64,000 nt of DNA, taken from assembly GCA_016872775.1 (NCBI GenBank), contig VGZA01000006.1:62001-126000 (forward strand), given 5' to 3'. A program made the position numbers and the translations under genes. The notes under the pieces were generated by a model. The model saw only the letters and a program-made list of their open reading frames with translations, made no database searches and was not told the origin of the DNA. Below, one piece after another: positions 50,828 through 60,342 of the stretch. The DNA comes from Planctomycetota bacterium (lineage in GTDB: Bacteria; Planctomycetota; Planctomycetia; Pirellulales; Pirellulaceae). Every line of letters begins with the position of its first letter. The stretch's first letter is position 1.

Positions 50828-52240
50828 ATGCCAAGCGACTCCCATACACTTTCGCGACGCGATCTCCTGGCGACGATCGGCACCGGTATCGGCTGGCTGG
50901 CCTTGCCCGGCATGCTCCAGGCCGACGTGGAGACCAACGCGAATCCATTGGCGCCACGCAACCCGCATTTTCCCGCACGCGCCAAGCATATCATTCACAT
51001 CTATTTAAATGGTGGCCCTTCACAAGTCGACACCTGGGACCCGAAAACGGAGCTTACGAAGTGGGGCGGCAAAAAACTGCCGCTGGGAAATCTGACCACC
51101 GAACGCGAAACCGGCGTCGCACTCGCTTCGCCCTTCCAGTTCGCTCAGTACGGTGACAGCGGACTCTGGTGCAGCGAGGTTTTCCAGCAGACCGCAAGTC
51201 GCCATGCCGACCGGATCTGTGTCGTTCGTTCGATGTACGCCAACACGCCCAATCACGAACAGAGCATGCGGTTGATGAATACGGGCGACGAACGGTTATC
51301 GCGCCCGAGTTACGGTTCGTGGTTGACCTACGGGCTGGGCTGCGAAAACCAGAATCTGCCAGGGTTTGTCACGCTCTGCCCCGGATTGCCCGTCGCTGAC
51401 TCTTCGAATTGGCGCAGCGCTTTTCTGCCGGGGATTTATCAGGGGACCTATCTCGACACACGCAAGACGAAAGTCACCGAACTGATCGCCAACATTCAGA
51501 GTCCGCGTACGGATCCGTCGGGTCAGCGCCGGCAATTGGACCTGTTGACGAATTTGAATCGGCGGCACCAGGCTACTCGACGTGAGGATCCTAATCTCGA
51601 GGCCCGCATCCAGTCTTTTGAACTGGCCTATCGGATGCAGATGGAGGCCACCGATGCACTCGATATCTCCCAGGAGACAAAAGCGATTCAGGACCTCTAC
51701 AAGGCGGAGACGGTCCACGGGCGACAATTGCTGATCGCACGCCGGCTGATTGAACGAGGAGTGCGCGTCGTGCAGTGCTACCACGGGGACGTACAACCGT
51801 GGGACTCGCACAGCAACCTGGCAGACGAACACCGCCGATTAGGGAATGAATGCGATGGTCCGATCGCGGCTTTGCTCACTGACCTGCTGCAGAGAGGGCT
51901 CTTGGATCAGACGTTGGTTCTCTGCGGCGGCGAATTTGGACGCACTCCGGCGGTCGAAATCCCGATCGGTGGCGGCAATCCTACCGGCCGCGATCACAAC
52001 CACCACGGCTTCTCAATCTGGATGGCCGGCGGTGGCGTTCGAGGAGGATTCGCCTACGGCGCGACCGACGAGTTTGGCTATCGAGCCGTCGAGAATCGCG
52101 TTCACGTTCGAGATATCCACGCTACGATGCTGCATCTGATGGGCTTCGATCACAAACGGCTCACCTACCGCCACGCTGGCCTCGATTTCCGACTTACCGG
52201 CATCGAGGAAGCCCACTTGGTGCGAGAAATCATGGCGTGA
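50828..52240 (+). CDS. DUF1501 protein, Tat-exported, partner of PSD1 at 47910
   Basis: 470 residues. AAGGGGG precedes the ATG. The leader SRRDLLATIGTGIGWLALPG is twin-arginine-like. Domain entry IYLNGGPSQVDTWDPKTELT. Metal-site candidates are WDSH (about 325), GEFGRTP (about 368) and GRDHNHHGF (about 388), with NHH replacing HHP. A longer loop, AVEIPIGGGNPT, precedes the last motif. The tail DFRLTGIEEAHLVREIMA resembles the copy at 46507. It is the fourth PSD1/DUF1501-type gene after the FadR-type regulator and probably the last of that string. The palindrome at 50765 separates it from its partner. Confidence 0.94.
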   Translation: MPSDSHTLSRRDLLATIGTGIGWLALPGMLQADVETNANPLAPRNPHFPARAKHIIHIYLNGGPSQVDTWDPKTELTKWGGKKLPLGNLTTERETGVALASPFQFAQYGDSGLWCSEVFQQTASRHADRICVVRSMYANTPNHEQSMRLMNTGDERLSRPSYGSWLTYGLGCENQNLPGFVTLCPGLPVADSSNWRSAFLPGIYQGTYLDTRKTKVTELIANIQSPRTDPSGQRRQLDLLTNLNRRHQATRREDPNLEARIQSFELAYRMQMEATDALDISQETKAIQDLYKAETVHGRQLLIARRLIERGVRVVQCYHGDVQPWDSHSNLADEHRRLGNECDGPIAALLTDLLQRGLLDQTLVLCGGEFGRTPAVEIPIGGGNPTGRDHNHHGFSIWMAGGGVRGGFAYGATDEFGYRAVENRVHVRDIHATMLHLMGFDHKRLTYRHAGLDFRLTGIEEAHLVREIMA

Positions 52241-52264: not shown

Positions 52265-55200
52265 ATGCTCTCTGGCATCACGATGTTTGAAGCAAATATC
52301 GATGCGGGCAACGAAGGTCGCCCTTGGATGATTTCGCGAATTGGTTGTCAGCTCCGCCGCCAACCCTCGTTCGCCGCAATCTTTCTGGCGATCTGGCTGC
52401 TGTTTGAGGCGCGAACGTGCGGTCAGGAAGCCGCTTTGACGGTGCCGCTGGTGGGAGTTGATGAGACGGCAGTGGATCACATCGCGTCGGCAGTGGCCAA
52501 TCCCGCGCAACGGAAACTGTACGTCGGGACTCTGTCGCGGGATGCCGCGCGGACGGGGTTGTGGGTATTTGACCTGCGTGAAGATGGGCAGCCGACGGGC
52601 CAGCCGCGGAAATACTCCGACCATCCCGATGAGTTGCCGGCAGGACAACATAGTACCGTCGTTTGTTTGTTGCATGACGCGACGAGCCGGAAGTTGTACT
52701 TTGGAGTGCAGGCCTCGTATCCGACGCATACGCGTGGGCTGGTGATGTATTCGCTTGACGAGCGAGGCGAACCGCGGGGCAAGCCAGAGGCATTCGATCA
52801 TGGGAATCCGAATAAGTCGTGTGATGCGCTGACGCTCCATCCGAATGGGCGACTGATCGCGGTGGGATGGGGCGGCGAGGGAGTTTTTGTTCTCGATCGC
52901 GATGAACAGGGGCGGCCGGTTGGTAATGCGATCTTTCATCGAACCGGCGGGTATGGCGGGTACTCGGTGGCGCTGCGACGAGACGGGACGAAGCTGTATC
53001 GCGGCACGTATCCATCGGTGATCGAGGTTTGCGATCTCGACGCGCGCGGCGATGTCGTGGGAAAGCCGCGAGTGGTGTCGATTCCCAATGGCCCGCAGGA
53101 GTACGCGCGAATCGTGACAACGGAACGCGCCATCTACTTTCGCGGGCCGGACAAGCGACTGTCATGGTTTGCTCTCGACACAGCCGGCGAGGTTGTCGGG
53201 GGGATGCAGTCGGCGGACATTCCAAACTTGCAGGGAGTCGCGGCGGCTAGCCGCTCCGATCGATTGTTGATCGCGGTCGCGTCTCAGTTTTCGGATACGC
53301 TGACGAACCAACGGATCACGGACGGAGTCGAAGTGCACGAGATTGCGCTGAATACGAACGGTGGCCCAGGTGCCGTTGTGCGGAAATCGAAGCGATTTGT
53401 GCGCGCGGAGGCGGTCAGTCTGAGTGGGGGCGACGGAGTGGCGCTGGCGGCGAAGTCGCTTGGCCGCGGATTCCTGGGCAATCGGATCGCAGGGCTGAAG
53501 ATACGCTGCACGTTGGTCTCGCTGGAAGCGGACGGCACACCCCTGCCGGCAATGCGGGCGATCAAATTCGGTGACCAATCGGGCTATCTGCGGTTCGCAG
53601 TTTCAGCAAAACACTCGCGGGTGTATGCCGTCGTGGGTGGCGAGATCGTCAGCCGATCGCTGGAGAGTCCGACCTCGCTCGGTGAAAACACCTCCTTCCG
53701 CGGCGCGAACGGCGACTATCTTGGCCCACTCGCGCTGGACGAAGCGCGCGGACGGCTTGTCGTCGCGAGGAAGGACGGATCGGTTGCGGTGCTCCGGTTG
53801 GACCGAATTGGCATGCCCGTGGGCAACGACGAGACGTTGAAGACCGGACTTGCCTCGATCGGCGCGATTGTGGTGCATCCGAACAGCGGCGTTGTTTACG
53901 CAATTGGAGCGCCAAGCGGGCAACCATTGGAGGCCTCTGGCGTCGTCTCGATTCCGGCCGGGACGCACGTCAACGACGCCGCGATCGATTCCGAGCGTGG
54001 GAAACTCTATGTCGTCGGAGGCTATCGAGGTCGCGAGAACACGTCGGTCTGGACGCTGGATGAGCGGGGAATGCCGACATCGGCCGAACCGCGCTGGTTG
54101 GCGGACGATATTCCTGTTGAGAAGCCGGAAACGCGGGCGATCTTGTCGGGAGTGAAGCTCGATGCAGCGCGTCGAAAGTTGTATATCGCCGGCGCTCAGG
54201 AGAACCCGACGACGCAGCCAGGGTATCTGATCGTGCGCGACCTCGACGAGCGCGGAGATCCGACCGGCGATCCGCGGTTGTTCCCGAGCGCAAACTCGCG
54301 CGGTTCGTGCCTGACGATCGAACTGTCGAGCGACAAAAAGCGGCTGTACGAGTCAGGCTGGGGCGACCCGACGGTGTTCGTAAGGCAACTCGATGAGCGG
54401 GGCGAACCGTCCCGCGAATCGACCAGATGGTCAACCGGGCAATACGGCAAGCAGCAGCTTCTGCTGGCAAAGGGAGCAGGTGCCAATCGTGATTTGCTGC
54501 TGGCGGGTACGCATCCTTCGGAGTTGGAACTGATCCCGTTGCGATCGGCGGGGGAGCCGGAGCCGGGGGCGGTCGTCGAAATCGCGGTCGAAGGGTTGCA
54601 TCGTCAACTTGGGATGATGGCCTCGGGAGAGACTTCCGAGTGGATTGAACTCGACGCGGCATTGAAGAACGGTGTCGGCTCGGCAGTTGTGCGATGCACA
54701 CTTGGCGGCGCGCGAGTCAAGCGAGCGACGCTGCGTTGGGAAGTAGCGCAATCGAATGGCGAAGAGCAGGTGCCGATTCGCACGGCCGATATTTCGCTCG
54801 TCGGCAATGTCGGCGCGATAATCGTGCCGAAGTACGGGTTGGACGACCCAGTTCAATTGAAGGCGCTGGTTCGGACCAGCGCTGAGGAGTTCGAGCGGTA
54901 CCGCGAGTTCGCGCGGAAACATGTCGTCCCTCCGGCCGAGCGACCGGTGCGGACTCTGGTCGCAAACGGACTGATCGGGCTGGACGCCAGCGAACAGGCG
55001 TTGGAGACGGGCATGGCAACGCTCGCGATGCTTGGACATAACTCGGCGCAGATCTGGAACTGGCCCGGCGTCGCTCCTGAGACGATTCGGGCGGCAGCCG
55101 AACGGCACGGTATTCGGCGATTTCGCGATGCGATCTATAACCCGCCCTCCTACTTTCATTACAACTCGGATCTGGTCGCGCGCGGGTCGCTCGACAAGTG

Positions 55201-56962
55201 GGCGGCCGGTTTCCGCGACGCGGCATCAAAGATGGGAGCGAAGCCAGGCGAGCTCGAACTGATGCACATCGGCGACGAGCCGGGCTGGTACTATCCGCGC
55301 GTGACCGACGAAGTCGCGGGCGATCCGAATCGTCTGGCAATCTTCCGCGAGTACCTCCGGTCAAAAGGGCTGACTCCGGCCGATGTCGGTGCCGATAGCT
55401 GGGCCGTGATCCGGCCAGGTAAACTCAGCGAGGCGAAATCGCTGCCGCAACGCAGGCTCTTCTACTGGACAACGCGATTCTATGCGGAATCGCTGAGCCT
55501 CGGCTTCGCCGCCGCTACGCAGTCGCTGCAACGCGAGGTCAATCCCAAGCTGCTGACGACGATGAACCTCAATAACTGGCCGGGTCGGTTTTACGTCCCG
55601 TCGCCAGGAGTGAAGATCGCAAACAACGACAACATCGGCCCCGATGCCGGCGAGGGAATGCCCGATTGGTTCGACCTCGGCCGCAAACGAGCCGTGTCGT
55701 GCATCTGGACCGAAGACTGGTTCGGCGACGCCGAGGCTCAACTGTGGTCGCTGTACGGCGACATGCTGCGTTGCTCGGCGCGGGAAGGCGGCGTTGAATA
55801 TGGCGGCTACCCGGTCGGCCAATCGACCGGTGCATTTGCCGACGGCATGACGCTGAAGATCGCGTCGCTGCTCGGCCACGGGGCGAAGGCGATTGACCCG
55901 TACACCTTCGGCCCGAACCTGGCCTTCGCCGACGGCTGGTCCGAAAAGGAAGTGACGTACCGCAATCTCGGCGCGGCGATGCGACTGGTCGGCAAAGCGG
56001 AGCGTCTCGTCGCCCCCGGCCGGCCTCGAGACGGTACGGTCGCCATCGTCTTTCCGCAGGCCAGCCAGGTTTGGGACAGCGACTCGAAGACGAATGCTTA
56101 CTTGCAAGAACTTTACGGCCTGCACTTCGCGCTGACGCACGAGAACTATCCGGTCGATTTCGTCGATGACTTTTCGCTGGAGGCCGGCGATCTGTCACGT
56201 CGCCGATACGCCGCGATTTACGTCACCGCGCCGAACCTGTCGCTCAAAGCTCAACAAGCTTTGCTCGACTGGACGAATTCCGGCGGCACGCTCGTGATCT
56301 CCCCGGGGGCCTGCTCGGCCGACGAATATAACTCGCCGACCACGCTACTGCGATCGCAACTCGGAGCCAATCAATCGGGCGTCGAACGCGTCGCTCCTCC
56401 GCATTTTACACAAGCGTTCCGCATCGAACGGACGCCGATCAAAGTCAGCGACGCGGCCATCGGCACTTCGACCACGTTTGCCATCTCGCAGACCGTCTCG
56501 CTGCAGCCGACCGGCGCGGTGTCGATCGCTTCGTTCACCGATGGTTCCGCTGCCGCTACCCTGAAGGCGCAAGGTAGGGGTCGAATCATCACGATCGGTT
56601 TCTGGTCCGGCGTGAGCTACTGGCTCAGCCCAAACCGCACCGACATTACTCGCCTGCCGACCGACTGGTCCACCGAAGCGCGATTATTCGCGACCTGGCC
56701 CGCCCGGCTCGCGAATGCCCCGCGCCACGTCATCACAAACACTCCCGGCGTTGAAGCCGTGCTCCTTGAATCCGACGCTGGTCTCGCCATCACCCTTCTC
56801 AACTGGACGGGTCAACCGATCCAAAAATTGGCAATCACGATCCCTGGACTGAAACCAACCTCCAGACTTACCTCGATGGAACATGGCCCTCTGCAACGAA
56901 CAGCCGGCGGCGAGACCGTCCAACTCCCGTTACAAGCCGCGGATGTTGTTTTCGCGGAGTGA
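52265..56962 (+). CDS. Giant exported propeller-glycosidase fusion
   Basis: 1565 residues from ATG 52265; ATG 52328 (residue 22) is likely the true start because a leader core, PSFAAIFLAIWLLFEA, then lies near the N-terminus. Residues about 60-770 are a YVTN/WD40-like propeller of some ten or eleven units, each with a turn like LDERGEPRGKP, LDARGDVVGKP, LDERGMPTSAEP or LDERGDPTGDP. A short beta-rich section follows. Residues about 890-1290 look like a GH42-type TIM barrel, with LMHIGDEPGWYYP (about 1000) and CIWTEDWFGDAEAQ (about 1147) offering two carboxylates. Residues about 1295-1400 (RYAAIYVTAPNLSLKAQQAL, GGTLVISPG) resemble the glutamine-amidotransferase-like domain that follows GH42 barrels. 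A glycosidase is plausible but not established. It starts 24 bases after a DUF1501 gene. Confidence 0.82.
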   Translation: MLSGITMFEANIDAGNEGRPWMISRIGCQLRRQPSFAAIFLAIWLLFEARTCGQEAALTVPLVGVDETAVDHIASAVANPAQRKLYVGTLSRDAARTGLWVFDLREDGQPTGQPRKYSDHPDELPAGQHSTVVCLLHDATSRKLYFGVQASYPTHTRGLVMYSLDERGEPRGKPEAFDHGNPNKSCDALTLHPNGRLIAVGWGGEGVFVLDRDEQGRPVGNAIFHRTGGYGGYSVALRRDGTKLYRGTYPSVIEVCDLDARGDVVGKPRVVSIPNGPQEYARIVTTERAIYFRGPDKRLSWFALDTAGEVVGGMQSADIPNLQGVAAASRSDRLLIAVASQFSDTLTNQRITDGVEVHEIALNTNGGPGAVVRKSKRFVRAEAVSLSGGDGVALAAKSLGRGFLGNRIAGLKIRCTLVSLEADGTPLPAMRAIKFGDQSGYLRFAVSAKHSRVYAVVGGEIVSRSLESPTSLGENTSFRGANGDYLGPLALDEARGRLVVARKDGSVAVLRLDRIGMPVGNDETLKTGLASIGAIVVHPNSGVVYAIGAPSGQPLEASGVVSIPAGTHVNDAAIDSERGKLYVVGGYRGRENTSVWTLDERGMPTSAEPRWLADDIPVEKPETRAILSGVKLDAARRKLYIAGAQENPTTQPGYLIVRDLDERGDPTGDPRLFPSANSRGSCLTIELSSDKKRLYESGWGDPTVFVRQLDERGEPSRESTRWSTGQYGKQQLLLAKGAGANRDLLLAGTHPSELELIPLRSAGEPEPGAVVEIAVEGLHRQLGMMASGETSEWIELDAALKNGVGSAVVRCTLGGARVKRATLRWEVAQSNGEEQVPIRTADISLVGNVGAIIVPKYGLDDPVQLKALVRTSAEEFERYREFARKHVVPPAERPVRTLVANGLIGLDASEQALETGMATLAMLGHNSAQIWNWPGVAPETIRAAAERHGIRRFRDAIYNPPSYFHYNSDLVARGSLDKWAAGFRDAASKMGAKPGELELMHIGDEPGWYYPRVTDEVAGDPNRLAIFREYLRSKGLTPADVGADSWAVIRPGKLSEAKSLPQRRLFYWTTRFYAESLSLGFAAATQSLQREVNPKLLTTMNLNNWPGRFYVPSPGVKIANNDNIGPDAGEGMPDWFDLGRKRAVSCIWTEDWFGDAEAQLWSLYGDMLRCSAREGGVEYGGYPVGQSTGAFADGMTLKIASLLGHGAKAIDPYTFGPNLAFADGWSEKEVTYRNLGAAMRLVGKAERLVAPGRPRDGTVAIVFPQASQVWDSDSKTNAYLQELYGLHFALTHENYPVDFVDDFSLEAGDLSRRRYAAIYVTAPNLSLKAQQALLDWTNSGGTLVISPGACSADEYNSPTTLLRSQLGANQSGVERVAPPHFTQAFRIERTPIKVSDAAIGTSTTFAISQTVSLQPTGAVSIASFTDGSAAATLKAQGRGRIITIGFWSGVSYWLSPNRTDITRLPTDWSTEARLFATWPARLANAPRHVITNTPGVEAVLLESDAGLAITLLNWTGQPIQKLAITIPGLKPTSRLTSMEHGPLQRTAGGETVQLPLQAADVVFAE

Positions 56963-57094: not shown

Positions 57095-58492
57095 TTGGTT
57101 GACGAGAGCCTCCACTTGACGACCCTCACGAGCGCAAACGCACCGGTATCTCGTCGAACATTGCTGCGGGTCGGCGGCGGGCTTGCGGTGTCGGCGGCGT
57201 ATTGGCCGGGATACGTCCTACAGGCCCAACCACAGACGCACCGCGCGAAAAGTTGCATTCTCGTCTATTTACTTGGCGGGCCTCCACATCTGGACATGTT
57301 TGATTTGAAACCGGAGGCTCCGGCGGAAGTGCGTGGGCCCTTTCAGCCCATCGCGACGAATGTGCCTGGCCTGGAAATCTGTGAGTTGTTGCCGCAGCTG
57401 GCGACGATAGCCGACAAGTACTCGATCGTGCGATCGGTCAGTCATCCCAATTCCAATCACACGCCGATGATCTACTACACGCTGACGGGGCGGGCGACCG
57501 CGCAGCCGTTGGTCGATAACGACATCCGACCGCCGCAGCGAGCCGACTTTCCCCATTTGGGGTCGGTGCTGTCCAAATTCCTGCCGGGTCCGGATTCGCT
57601 GCCGGGATACCTCGCGCTGCCCGAACTGGCGATTCGCAGCAGCACTCAAGGCGAGTACAAACGGGCGCGCAGTCCGTTGCGTGGCGGTTCGGCCGGTTTT
57701 CTCGGCTCACGTTTTGATCCGTTCTGTGTGAACGGCGAGCCGGGTACACCGGAAACAATTCCAGCCTTTGCTCTTCCGGATGGAGTTGATGTCGACCGGC
57801 TGGAATCTCGCGCGGCGTTGTTGTCGCTCCTTGATCATCCGCCGGGGTCCGCGCCGGTTCGACGGATGAGCGAGCTCAAACAACAGGCCGTCATGTTGAC
57901 GGGTGCGGCAAATCGCGGGCGACTGCCAGCGTTTTCGCTCGACGATGAGTCGTCCGAGGTCCGTGACCGTTACGGCCGCCATCGATTCGGCCAGACCATG
58001 CTGATGGCTCGAAAACTGGCGGAAGCCGGTGTCCCGATGATCGCGATTCACTTCAATGAGATGACCGTTTGCGATGGATGGGATACGCACAGCAGTAACT
58101 TTTTCGCGTTGAAGTCGGAACTCTTGCCAATGGTCGACCAGTCGATGAGCGCCCTGCTCGCGGACCTTGATCAGCGAGGCCGCCTTGGCGACACCCTGGT
58201 GGCCTGTTTCGGTGAGTTCGGACGCACCCCGAAAATCAATGCCAATGCCGGCCGTGATCACTGGGGCGACTGCGGCTGCGCTCTGCTGGCTGGGGGCGGA
58301 ATTCGAGGCGGGCGAGCGATCGGCGCGTCGGATCGCATCGGCGCCTATCCGGTCTCCGAACCGGTGGATCCCGTCGACCTGCATGCCACGATCTATCACT
58401 GCCTCGGTCTGGATGCCGAGCTCAAGATTCACGACGAGCTGCAGCGACCGTGGAGCATTTCGACCGGTCAAGTATTGACGCGACTGTTGTAG
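57095..58492 (+). CDS. DUF1501 protein, PSD1-independent type
   Basis: 465 residues from TTG 57095. TTG 57116, with GAGAG 7 bases upstream, is an equally good start, so the N-terminus is uncertain by seven residues. Leader SRRTLLRVGGGLAVSAAYWP. Domain entry VYLLGGPPHLDMFDLKPEAP, then VRGPFQPIATNVPGLEICEL. Metal-site candidates are WDTH (about 329), GEFGRTP (about 373) and GRDHWG (about 387). It belongs to the same subgroup as the copies at 28021, 29523 and 32037. Its neighbours are the propeller-glycosidase fusion and a GH32/43-like propeller, not a cytochrome. The function is unknown. Confidence 0.92.
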   Translation: MVDESLHLTTLTSANAPVSRRTLLRVGGGLAVSAAYWPGYVLQAQPQTHRAKSCILVYLLGGPPHLDMFDLKPEAPAEVRGPFQPIATNVPGLEICELLPQLATIADKYSIVRSVSHPNSNHTPMIYYTLTGRATAQPLVDNDIRPPQRADFPHLGSVLSKFLPGPDSLPGYLALPELAIRSSTQGEYKRARSPLRGGSAGFLGSRFDPFCVNGEPGTPETIPAFALPDGVDVDRLESRAALLSLLDHPPGSAPVRRMSELKQQAVMLTGAANRGRLPAFSLDDESSEVRDRYGRHRFGQTMLMARKLAEAGVPMIAIHFNEMTVCDGWDTHSSNFFALKSELLPMVDQSMSALLADLDQRGRLGDTLVACFGEFGRTPKINANAGRDHWGDCGCALLAGGGIRGGRAIGASDRIGAYPVSEPVDPVDLHATIYHCLGLDAELKIHDELQRPWSISTGQVLTRLL

Positions 58493-58590: not shown

Positions 58591-60342
58591 ATGCGGCACG
58601 TTCCAGGAAGCCAACTCTTGTTGCGAAATAGTCCGCGGAAGACTGCGACCATGAATCGCAGTGGCGCCGTGCTTCAGAAAAGGCATGTGGTTCGGCCACG
58701 GGCAATTTGTTGCGAACTGTTGCCGAGGCTCACACCGGCCGTGCTGCTGGGCGCTCTGTTCTTTTCGTCGCTGATCGCCGTCGATGCGGGAGAAACGACG
58801 GTCGGGCCCGACCGCGTCGTGACGACTCAAAATCATGCCGACCCGGCTCTGTTCCTGTTCGTGGACGATTCGGAGACGGAGCAGGTGACGGGGTTGCAGC
58901 GCGTGGTCGGCCGGTCGCGAAAACTGGCGGAGCCTGTGATTATCGCGGACAAACCCTGGGAAGGGGAACGCGTGCAGGCGTGGGGCAGCGTCGTTGTCGA
59001 GCCGGACGGCTTGTTCCGAATCTGGTACTTTGCCATGAACACCGAACGCCGCGCCGACGAACTGGAACGCGGTGGATACGCCTACGCGGAGAGCCGAGAT
59101 GGCGTGCGCTGGACGAAACCGAATCTGGGGGTCGTCGAATTTCGCGGCAGCAAAGACAACAACCTCTTCTACACTTGCGCGCCGGACGGCCGAAACCTGG
59201 TCGACGAGGAACTGGCGCGACGCAACATTGGCCTGCCGGCGCTCGATGAAGAGGGCCGCCAGATCGGCGTCGTCAACAATCTGGACGGGCTGACCGTGGT
59301 CCGCGACGACTCGGACCCAGATCCCCAACGGCGCTACAAGCTGATCGCCAATATGCAGGACCACCGCATGTGGGCCTATGCCTACCGGGATCGTTATCCG
59401 AATGTCACTGACGCCGACATGCAGCAGGCTAATAAAGTGATCGGGCAATACCTGGACACTAGTCCCGACGGGATTCATTGGGCCAGGCGGCCCCGCCGAG
59501 TGTCACACGGCGCCGGTGGCGACTACATGATGGTGACTCGGGACTATCGCAATCAGCAATGGTGGTTGAACGAACGCAGCACGGCGGGACTTGGAGGCCG
59601 CAACGCAGCGCTTCGCGTCGGCAAATCGCTCGAGAAGTGGTCGCCGCCGGAACTGATCTTCGACAACGGACCGGACAGCGAACACGGCAAGCTCTGGGAG
59701 TGGCATGGCGGCATGACACCGTTCAACTATGGACGATTGAACCTCGGTTTCCTGGAGCGCTGGCCGAATCAAGGGCACGGGGCCACCTGCGAATTGATCA
59801 GCCAGCGCGACGGCCAGCCCTGGCGGCGCGTGTCCCCCAGTACTCCGATCCTCGATGTCGGTCCCGACGAGGCATTCGACAGCGCTCTCTGCTATCCCAC
59901 GCACAATCCGCCAATTCGTGTGGGCGACCAGCTGCTGATCTTCTACACCGGTGGAGGTTCCAGGAAGAATTCCAAACAGGGACTGCCGATGTCGATCGGA
60001 CTGATGACGCTGAAGCGGGATCGGTTCGCAGGCCTGGCCAACTGGCGAGCCCGAGAACCGGGAGTGATCGTCACTAAACCGCAGTCGATTCAGAAATCGA
60101 CCCTGCTGCTCAACGCCGAACTGACCGAAGCCGTTCCGGTTCGCGTGGCGGTGCTGAAACCGGATGGGACCGAGGTAGCCGGTTTCGGCCTTGAGGATTC
60201 CCGTCTGCAGCAGCTGCCAAACGGGATCGAGCACCAGGTCCGCTGGCAAGGCGACCGCGATCTCAGCGAACTTCGGAACCACGACGTCAAATTGAGGTTC
60301 GAGGTGAAAGGCGCGATTGTCTACGCCTACCGCTTTCAGTGA
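58591..60342 (+). CDS. Exported GH32/GH43-like five-bladed propeller protein
   Basis: 583 residues from ATG 58591; ATG 58651 (residue 21) is an alternative and gives a shorter path to the leader core LTPAVLLGALFFSSLIAVDA. The body has the marks of the GH32/43/68 propeller superfamily: VVEPDGLFRIWYFAMNTERR, YAYAESRDGVRWTKPNLGVV, DTSPDGIHWARRPRRVSHG, YPTHNPPIRVGDQLLIFYTG and MSIGLMTLKRDRFAGLANW. The C-terminal about 100 residues form a separate beta-sandwich (TLLLNAELTEAVPVRVAVLK). Catalytic carboxylates cannot be assigned with confidence. It probably acts on or binds glycans outside the cell. It follows a DUF1501 gene by 98 bases and converges on the minus-strand oxidoreductase. Confidence 0.8.
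   Translation: MRHVPGSQLLLRNSPRKTATMNRSGAVLQKRHVVRPRAICCELLPRLTPAVLLGALFFSSLIAVDAGETTVGPDRVVTTQNHADPALFLFVDDSETEQVTGLQRVVGRSRKLAEPVIIADKPWEGERVQAWGSVVVEPDGLFRIWYFAMNTERRADELERGGYAYAESRDGVRWTKPNLGVVEFRGSKDNNLFYTCAPDGRNLVDEELARRNIGLPALDEEGRQIGVVNNLDGLTVVRDDSDPDPQRRYKLIANMQDHRMWAYAYRDRYPNVTDADMQQANKVIGQYLDTSPDGIHWARRPRRVSHGAGGDYMMVTRDYRNQQWWLNERSTAGLGGRNAALRVGKSLEKWSPPELIFDNGPDSEHGKLWEWHGGMTPFNYGRLNLGFLERWPNQGHGATCELISQRDGQPWRRVSPSTPILDVGPDEAFDSALCYPTHNPPIRVGDQLLIFYTGGGSRKNSKQGLPMSIGLMTLKRDRFAGLANWRAREPGVIVTKPQSIQKSTLLLNAELTEAVPVRVAVLKPDGTEVAGFGLEDSRLQQLPNGIEHQVRWQGDRDLSELRNHDVKLRFEVKGAIVYAYRFQ

Follow-up and report, generated by a model that had tools for sequence, protein, structure and literature searches.

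We have analyzed a window of 64,000 nucleotides (the whole stretch of DNA under study) from a genome of the Planctomycetota. An open reading frame (ORF) at 52265..56962 of the forward strand, with an ATG start, free of stops and 1565 amino acids long, codes for a protein in which propeller repeats are fused to a glycosidase-like enzyme; the coordinates of its parts given below refer to the same strand. The gene is flanked, also on the forward strand, by two genes for DUF1501 proteins, one upstream (50828..52240, E 2.8e-141) and the other downstream (57095..58492, E 1e-92), given here as context only. Positions 1-60342 of the window are occupied almost entirely by planctomycete PSCyt/PSD, DUF1501 and DUF1552 genes that follow one another in a single direction, coding for at least six PSD/PSCyt and at least nine DUF1501 proteins, with S15 peptidase and DUF6807 genes interspersed. 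Near the fusion gene, at 58591-60342, there is also a protein of 583 amino acids that had no Pfam match at E values up to 1 and that, by eye, has a five-bladed look of the GH32/GH43 type.

Judging from sequence comparisons, the ORF is genuine and conserved from end to end, as the fusion protein aligns over nearly its full length to proteins of other genomes at 38-66% identity. A single copy is found in the source genome. Translation probably starts at M22 (52328), directly 5' of a hydrophobic signal-like segment, since the relatives begin just before this segment and residues 1-21 have no support from them. The segment resembling a signal peptide (residues 22-54, 52328..52426) contains the hydrophobic stretch SFAAIFLAIWLLF, and similar N-termini are found in the relatives.

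The preliminary description of this DNA had read the N-terminal half as one propeller of about ten units. The AlphaFold2 model of this half, built on a nine-row alignment, is all beta (pLDDT 82.8) and did give closed propellers, but the repeats are distributed over two of them, predicted to be seven-bladed and arranged in tandem. Propeller 1 (residues 56-393, 52430..53443) was matched by VIA-align to 1jof, a seven-bladed chain of the lactonising type, with Z 26.5 and rmsd 3.6 over 307 aligned positions (model residues 1-338), and also to chains of the 6-phosphogluconolactonase type. Propeller 2 (residues ~424-768, 53534..54568) matched YncE (3vgz) with Z 25.1 and rmsd 3.0 over 282 aligned positions. 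The mutual placement of the two propellers in the model is uncertain (pTM 0.56). Comparison of the BLAST type of the N-terminal half with itself gave no internal repeat, and profile comparison alone revealed a diverged internal duplication of about 200 residues, in which residues 69-266 (52469..53062) align with residues 565-767 at the end of propeller 2 (53957..54565; hhalign 99.8%, E 1.6e-28).

The turn after which these repeats were noticed, LDERG, occurs in its exact form four times in the N-terminal half and never in the C-terminal one. A looser LDERGxP-like turn is present 13 times in the N-terminal half, whereas 2,000 shuffles gave 1.6 on average and never more than 7. It had been proposed that this turn might define a new propeller subfamily. 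However, in 3hfq, a lactonase-type protein of solved structure, D-x-x-G-x-L turns align with the D-x-x-G-x-P turn of the LDERG type (a weak match overall, E 0.014), so the turn is not unique and is by itself no mark of a new subfamily. The fusion protein's own propellers stay below all Pfam cut-offs, the SGL match (1.1e-4) included, and PF10282 was detected in two of nine relatives of the propeller half. In summary, like the lactonase, 6-phosphogluconolactonase and YncE propellers they are closed and seven-bladed (Z 24-26), with D-x-x-G turns at equivalent places, and they differ from them in being two in tandem, in the internal duplication and in the attached enzyme.

A linker and a beta domain (residues 775-894, 54587..54946), with strands in the model and low confidence over the first 30 residues, connect the propellers to the enzyme and are the counterpart of the N-terminal region in unfused relatives. 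They are followed by a TIM barrel (residues ~895-1235, 54947..55969), a Rossmann-like trimerisation domain (residues ~1256-1470, 56030..56674; GLMA_2nd, 1.4e-5) and a C-terminal domain of beta strands (residues ~1480-1565, 56702..56959). The AlphaFold2 model of this half, from eleven rows, had a pLDDT of 76.4 and a pTM of 0.83. Its best structure matches were GH42, GlmA-type, GH164 and 1,2-beta-glucosyltransferase chains (VIA Z 19-22 over 540-570 residues), and the three-domain architecture of GH42 could be followed over model residues 121-791 (VIA Z ~21). These results bear out that a propeller half and a GH42-like fold are joined in one polypeptide. What had been described as a GATase-like domain was found at its place and is better identified as the trimerisation domain, as PF08532 or GLMA_2nd is detected in most relatives (PF08532 in 21 of the 25 members of the enzyme alignment). 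One relative of the enzyme half (L042:127-3951) had in addition a weak C-terminal match to a GDSL lipase/esterase.

The similarity to GH42 extends to sequence profiles. With the 25-row enzyme alignment, hmmsearch matched GH42 chains (best E 8.8e-15), and hhalign of the enzyme family against 16 planctomycete GH42 sequences, chosen by PF02449 E values below 1e-60, gave 99.7% with E 2.7e-25. By contrast with these reference sequences, the barrel model Glyco_hydro_42 (PF02449) found no match in the fusion protein at E values up to 1 and none in the 25 relatives at 0.01, and the Pfam matches of the enzyme half are all to trimerisation-domain models. The best matches of this domain at the sequence level were the GlmA-type exo-beta-D-glucosaminidases (5gsm) and an Ignavibacterium 1,2-beta-glucosyltransferase (7vkw). 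These proteins share the fold, but the sequence match is limited to the trimerisation domain and reaches 17 bits, against an NCBIfam cut-off of 1500 bits.

To examine the catalytic residues we have used 60 sequences, i.e., the 25-row alignment and 35 sequences from genomes of two phyla (two loci in wrong frames, L031 and L040, were excluded). The motifs GDEPGWYYP and WTEDWFG of the preliminary description are located where it had put them. The first contributes D1004-E1005 (55274..55279), which lies at the end of strand 4 and does not vary in the 60 sequences although identities fall to ~23%, and the second E1150-D1151 (55712..55717) at the end of strand 6, with the Glu in 57 and the Asp in 54 of them. 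In the 25-row alignment these two pairs are the sole invariant acids of the barrel. Both HMMER and hhalign placed E1005 on the acid/base Glu of the GH42 NE motif, in which the Asn has become Asp in 60/60. The second glutamate does not complete a GH42 catalytic pair, given that it belongs to strand 6. The nucleophile of Gan42B, E323 (4oif; mutated in 5dfa), falls by HMMER on the strand-7 glycines G1180-G1181 (55802..55807), within a Gly-Gly-Tyr, and no sequence of the 60 has an acid at residues 1179-1182. The posterior of the placement in this loop is about 0.2-0.4, and the preceding helix and the following strand 8 align better; confidence of the model is also low around strands 5-7, with a pLDDT under 50 at E1150. 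Two relatives (L028 and L045) retain the DE of strand 4, but the alignment shows no Glu at strand 6 in them (YETSN), and they might serve as a natural experiment on what E1150 does.

Taken by its sequence, the enzyme half is thus a remote GH42 homologue with a fold derived from GH42 that is not a member of the family by its catalytic residues, on account of the lacking match to the barrel profile, the DE in place of NE and the loss of the strand-7 acid. With the beta-galactosidases of GH42 (5xb7, 5e9a, 4oif) it shares the order of the three domains, the remote profile homology and the aligned strand-4 Glu, and it is unlike them in the DE, in the strand-7 position, in the conserved ED of strand 6 and in the two N-terminal propellers. 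The advice to consider the protein GH42-like and assay it on galactosides is therefore a doubtful guide to its chemistry, the two glutamates not being the GH42 pair. We found no description in the literature of propeller/GH42 fusions or of the loss of the GH42 nucleophile.

Full-length relatives with the same order of parts were found at two loci of Planctomycetaceae MAGs (L002 and L003, 64-66% identity) and, at 38-45% identity, in genomes labelled Omnitrophota, TA06, Vermiphilus or simply "bacterium". (One of the two MAG loci also contains, at L003:15372-18680, a protein of 1103 amino acids with a match to the middle domain of hydrazine synthase alpha, 1.3e-8.) Misbinning was considered as the origin of such unrelated labels and discarded. 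A common real origin of these loci is likely, because eight of the genomes fall in one phylum and four of them share neighbour genes at 61-88% identity. The propeller profile was detected in only one of 392 sampled planctomycete genomes, the source genome itself, besides L002 and L003; of 35 genomes from the other phylum, eight gave a match. A maximum likelihood tree built from 28 enzyme halves united the nine fusions in one group (100/100 support), sister to unfused enzymes of ~860 residues from both phyla. By this tree the fusion arose once, and the distribution points to transfer between phyla. The other phylum has small genomes with many unfused paralogues: those bearing the fusion (L004-L011; G450-G457) had 3-21 enzyme matches in 1.4-2.2 Mb, mostly 9-21, counts that are slightly inflated by genes split at contig ends. 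In G001, a genome from a different genus within the family of the source genome, only a decayed start of the fusion gene, with an in-frame stop, is left on the reverse strand (L021:1444-1869), and this remnant adjoins ORFs that by eye resemble a fucosidase and a glycosidase.

That the protein is a glycan-active enzyme we consider rather probable. Given such an enzyme, a substrate-assisted mechanism falls, in our analysis, a little short of an even chance. The protein would be a hydrolase that descended from the scaffold of a GH42-type beta-galactosidase and then lost the strand-7 nucleophile, a loss that would be explained because a substrate-assisted scheme needs no nucleophile of the enzyme. 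E1005 would keep the acid/base role, D1004 would steady the 2-acetamido group of the substrate and E1150-D1151 would bind sugar or help to position the acetamido group. The propellers, originally suggested to anchor or sense polymer, may hold or present the substrate, or else pack on the enzyme. The model for this chemistry are the hexosaminidases of GH123, in which the Asp of a consecutive catalytic DE motif stabilises the 2-acetamido group and the Glu is the acid/base (PMC11087588), and of GH20, with the pair Asp437-Glu438 (PMC4752478). The likeness to both lies in the consecutive DE found at the end of strand 4, and the motifs themselves are comparable (YFHLSDEPG in GH123 relatives, MHIGDEPG here). 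The accessory domains differ, the fusion protein has no Pfam match to GH20, and homology of the catalytic domain to GH123 was discarded, as hhalign against ten GH123 loci gave a probability of 1.9%. A substrate-assisted scheme would hence imply convergence. In loci of the other phylum the fusion adjoins genes for a heparinase II/III-like protein (four loci) and a DUF4838 protein (four loci), with the order DUF4838 gene, fusion gene, and then URO-D-like and heparinase II/III-like genes. This synteny, not seen in Planctomycetota, would fit a polymer of uronate and hexosamine as substrate. Taken together, a secreted glycan-active enzyme on a GH42-type scaffold, without the strand-7 nucleophile, with substrate-assisted DE chemistry and with twin propellers fused to it, is the reading that we put forward, and we do so tentatively.

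The conserved acids of the barrel, found at strands 4 and 6 only, would equally fit a retaining glycosidase with two carboxylates on the same three-domain scaffold, in which the nucleophile is at strand 4 and E1150 of strand 6 is the acid/base, the layout of the GH29/GH151 alpha-fucosidases. In the GH151 alpha-L-fucosidase ALfuk2 strand 4 bears the first of these residues, D154, and strand 6 the second, E235, in a protein with the same order of barrel, Rossmann and beta-sandwich domains (PMC10154630), and its structure (6tvk) was among the matches of the C-terminal half (Z 17.4). The conservation of E1150 comes close to that of the DE, which such a pair would explain as well as, or better than, substrate assistance. 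The source genome itself has a GHL6/GH151-like protein with a trimerisation domain (L086:1024-3330, G000 contig 36), related to 6tvk with E 8.9e-18. However, hhalign against a GH151/GHL6-like pair aligned the trimerisation and C-terminal parts and missed the barrel, E1005 falls on the acid/base of GH42 while the strand-4 Asp of GH151 seems, by indirect alignment, to be elsewhere on the strand, and E1150 is absent in 3/60. A carboxylate pair of this kind is nearly as likely as substrate assistance, although taken as a complete account of the protein we see it as somewhat unlikely.

The place of the strand-7 nucleophile might instead be taken by water activated by E1150/D1151, or by phosphate, with E1005 as the acid, in an inverting hydrolase or a phosphorylase. 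That the scaffold can lose its nucleophile is illustrated by the lacto-N-biose phosphorylase of GH112, a GH42-like protein that has its phosphate site where GH42 has the nucleophile (PMC8106489). One of the 25 relatives matched weakly the central domain of GH112 (E 0.0019), and comparison with the sole GH112-like gene found, a broken ORF, gave again a weak match of the central domain and none of the barrel. GH112 chains were not among the best structure matches of the C-terminal half, which we have not counted against this family. Phosphorylases are normally intracellular, whereas the fusion protein, with its signal-like segment, appears to be secreted, and we regard these schemes as unlikely. 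Between the three mechanisms, substrate assistance is favoured narrowly over the pair of strands 4 and 6 and over the inverting or phosphorolytic schemes. Propeller proteins often act as scaffolds, and the ancestral nucleophile is lost, so that a non-catalytic surface protein binding glycans or proteins, with the barrel as a relic, might be imagined; yet the strict D1004-E1005 in a family of 60 sequences, with many paralogues per genome, is unexpected for a relic and makes this improbable. A beta-galactosidase of the ordinary GH42/GH-A type, joined to a propeller that binds carbohydrate, as originally described, agrees with the overall fold and the remote profile similarity and is the least probable of all in view of the barrel profile, the Asn to Asp change and the strand-7 position.

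With a confidence slightly lower than that given to our reading of this one protein, we propose that the substrate-assisted reading may extend to a glycoside hydrolase family that would be new, broadly distributed among Planctomycetota and, in some genomes of ~2 Mb from an uncultured phylum, present in 9-21 copies. In it the GH42 scaffold would have switched from two retaining glutamates (strands 4 and 7) to the DE of strand 4 and the ED of strand 6, probably for substrate-assisted cleavage of N-acetylhexosaminides, and one branch would have gained the twin propellers. If this is true, the enzymes with a GH42 fold include a common branch, so far without a name, that has changed its catalytic residues, a second case, beside GH112, of a GH42 scaffold without its nucleophile. 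It would explain why Pfam recognizes these proteins through the trimerisation domain only, and would open to study a group of enzymes of which some small uncultured bacteria carry many copies. For the question of how an enzyme that degrades glycans might be served by propellers, the fusion with its two propellers is a model at hand, and the whole is an uncharacterised candidate enzyme family with testable chemistry and substrate.
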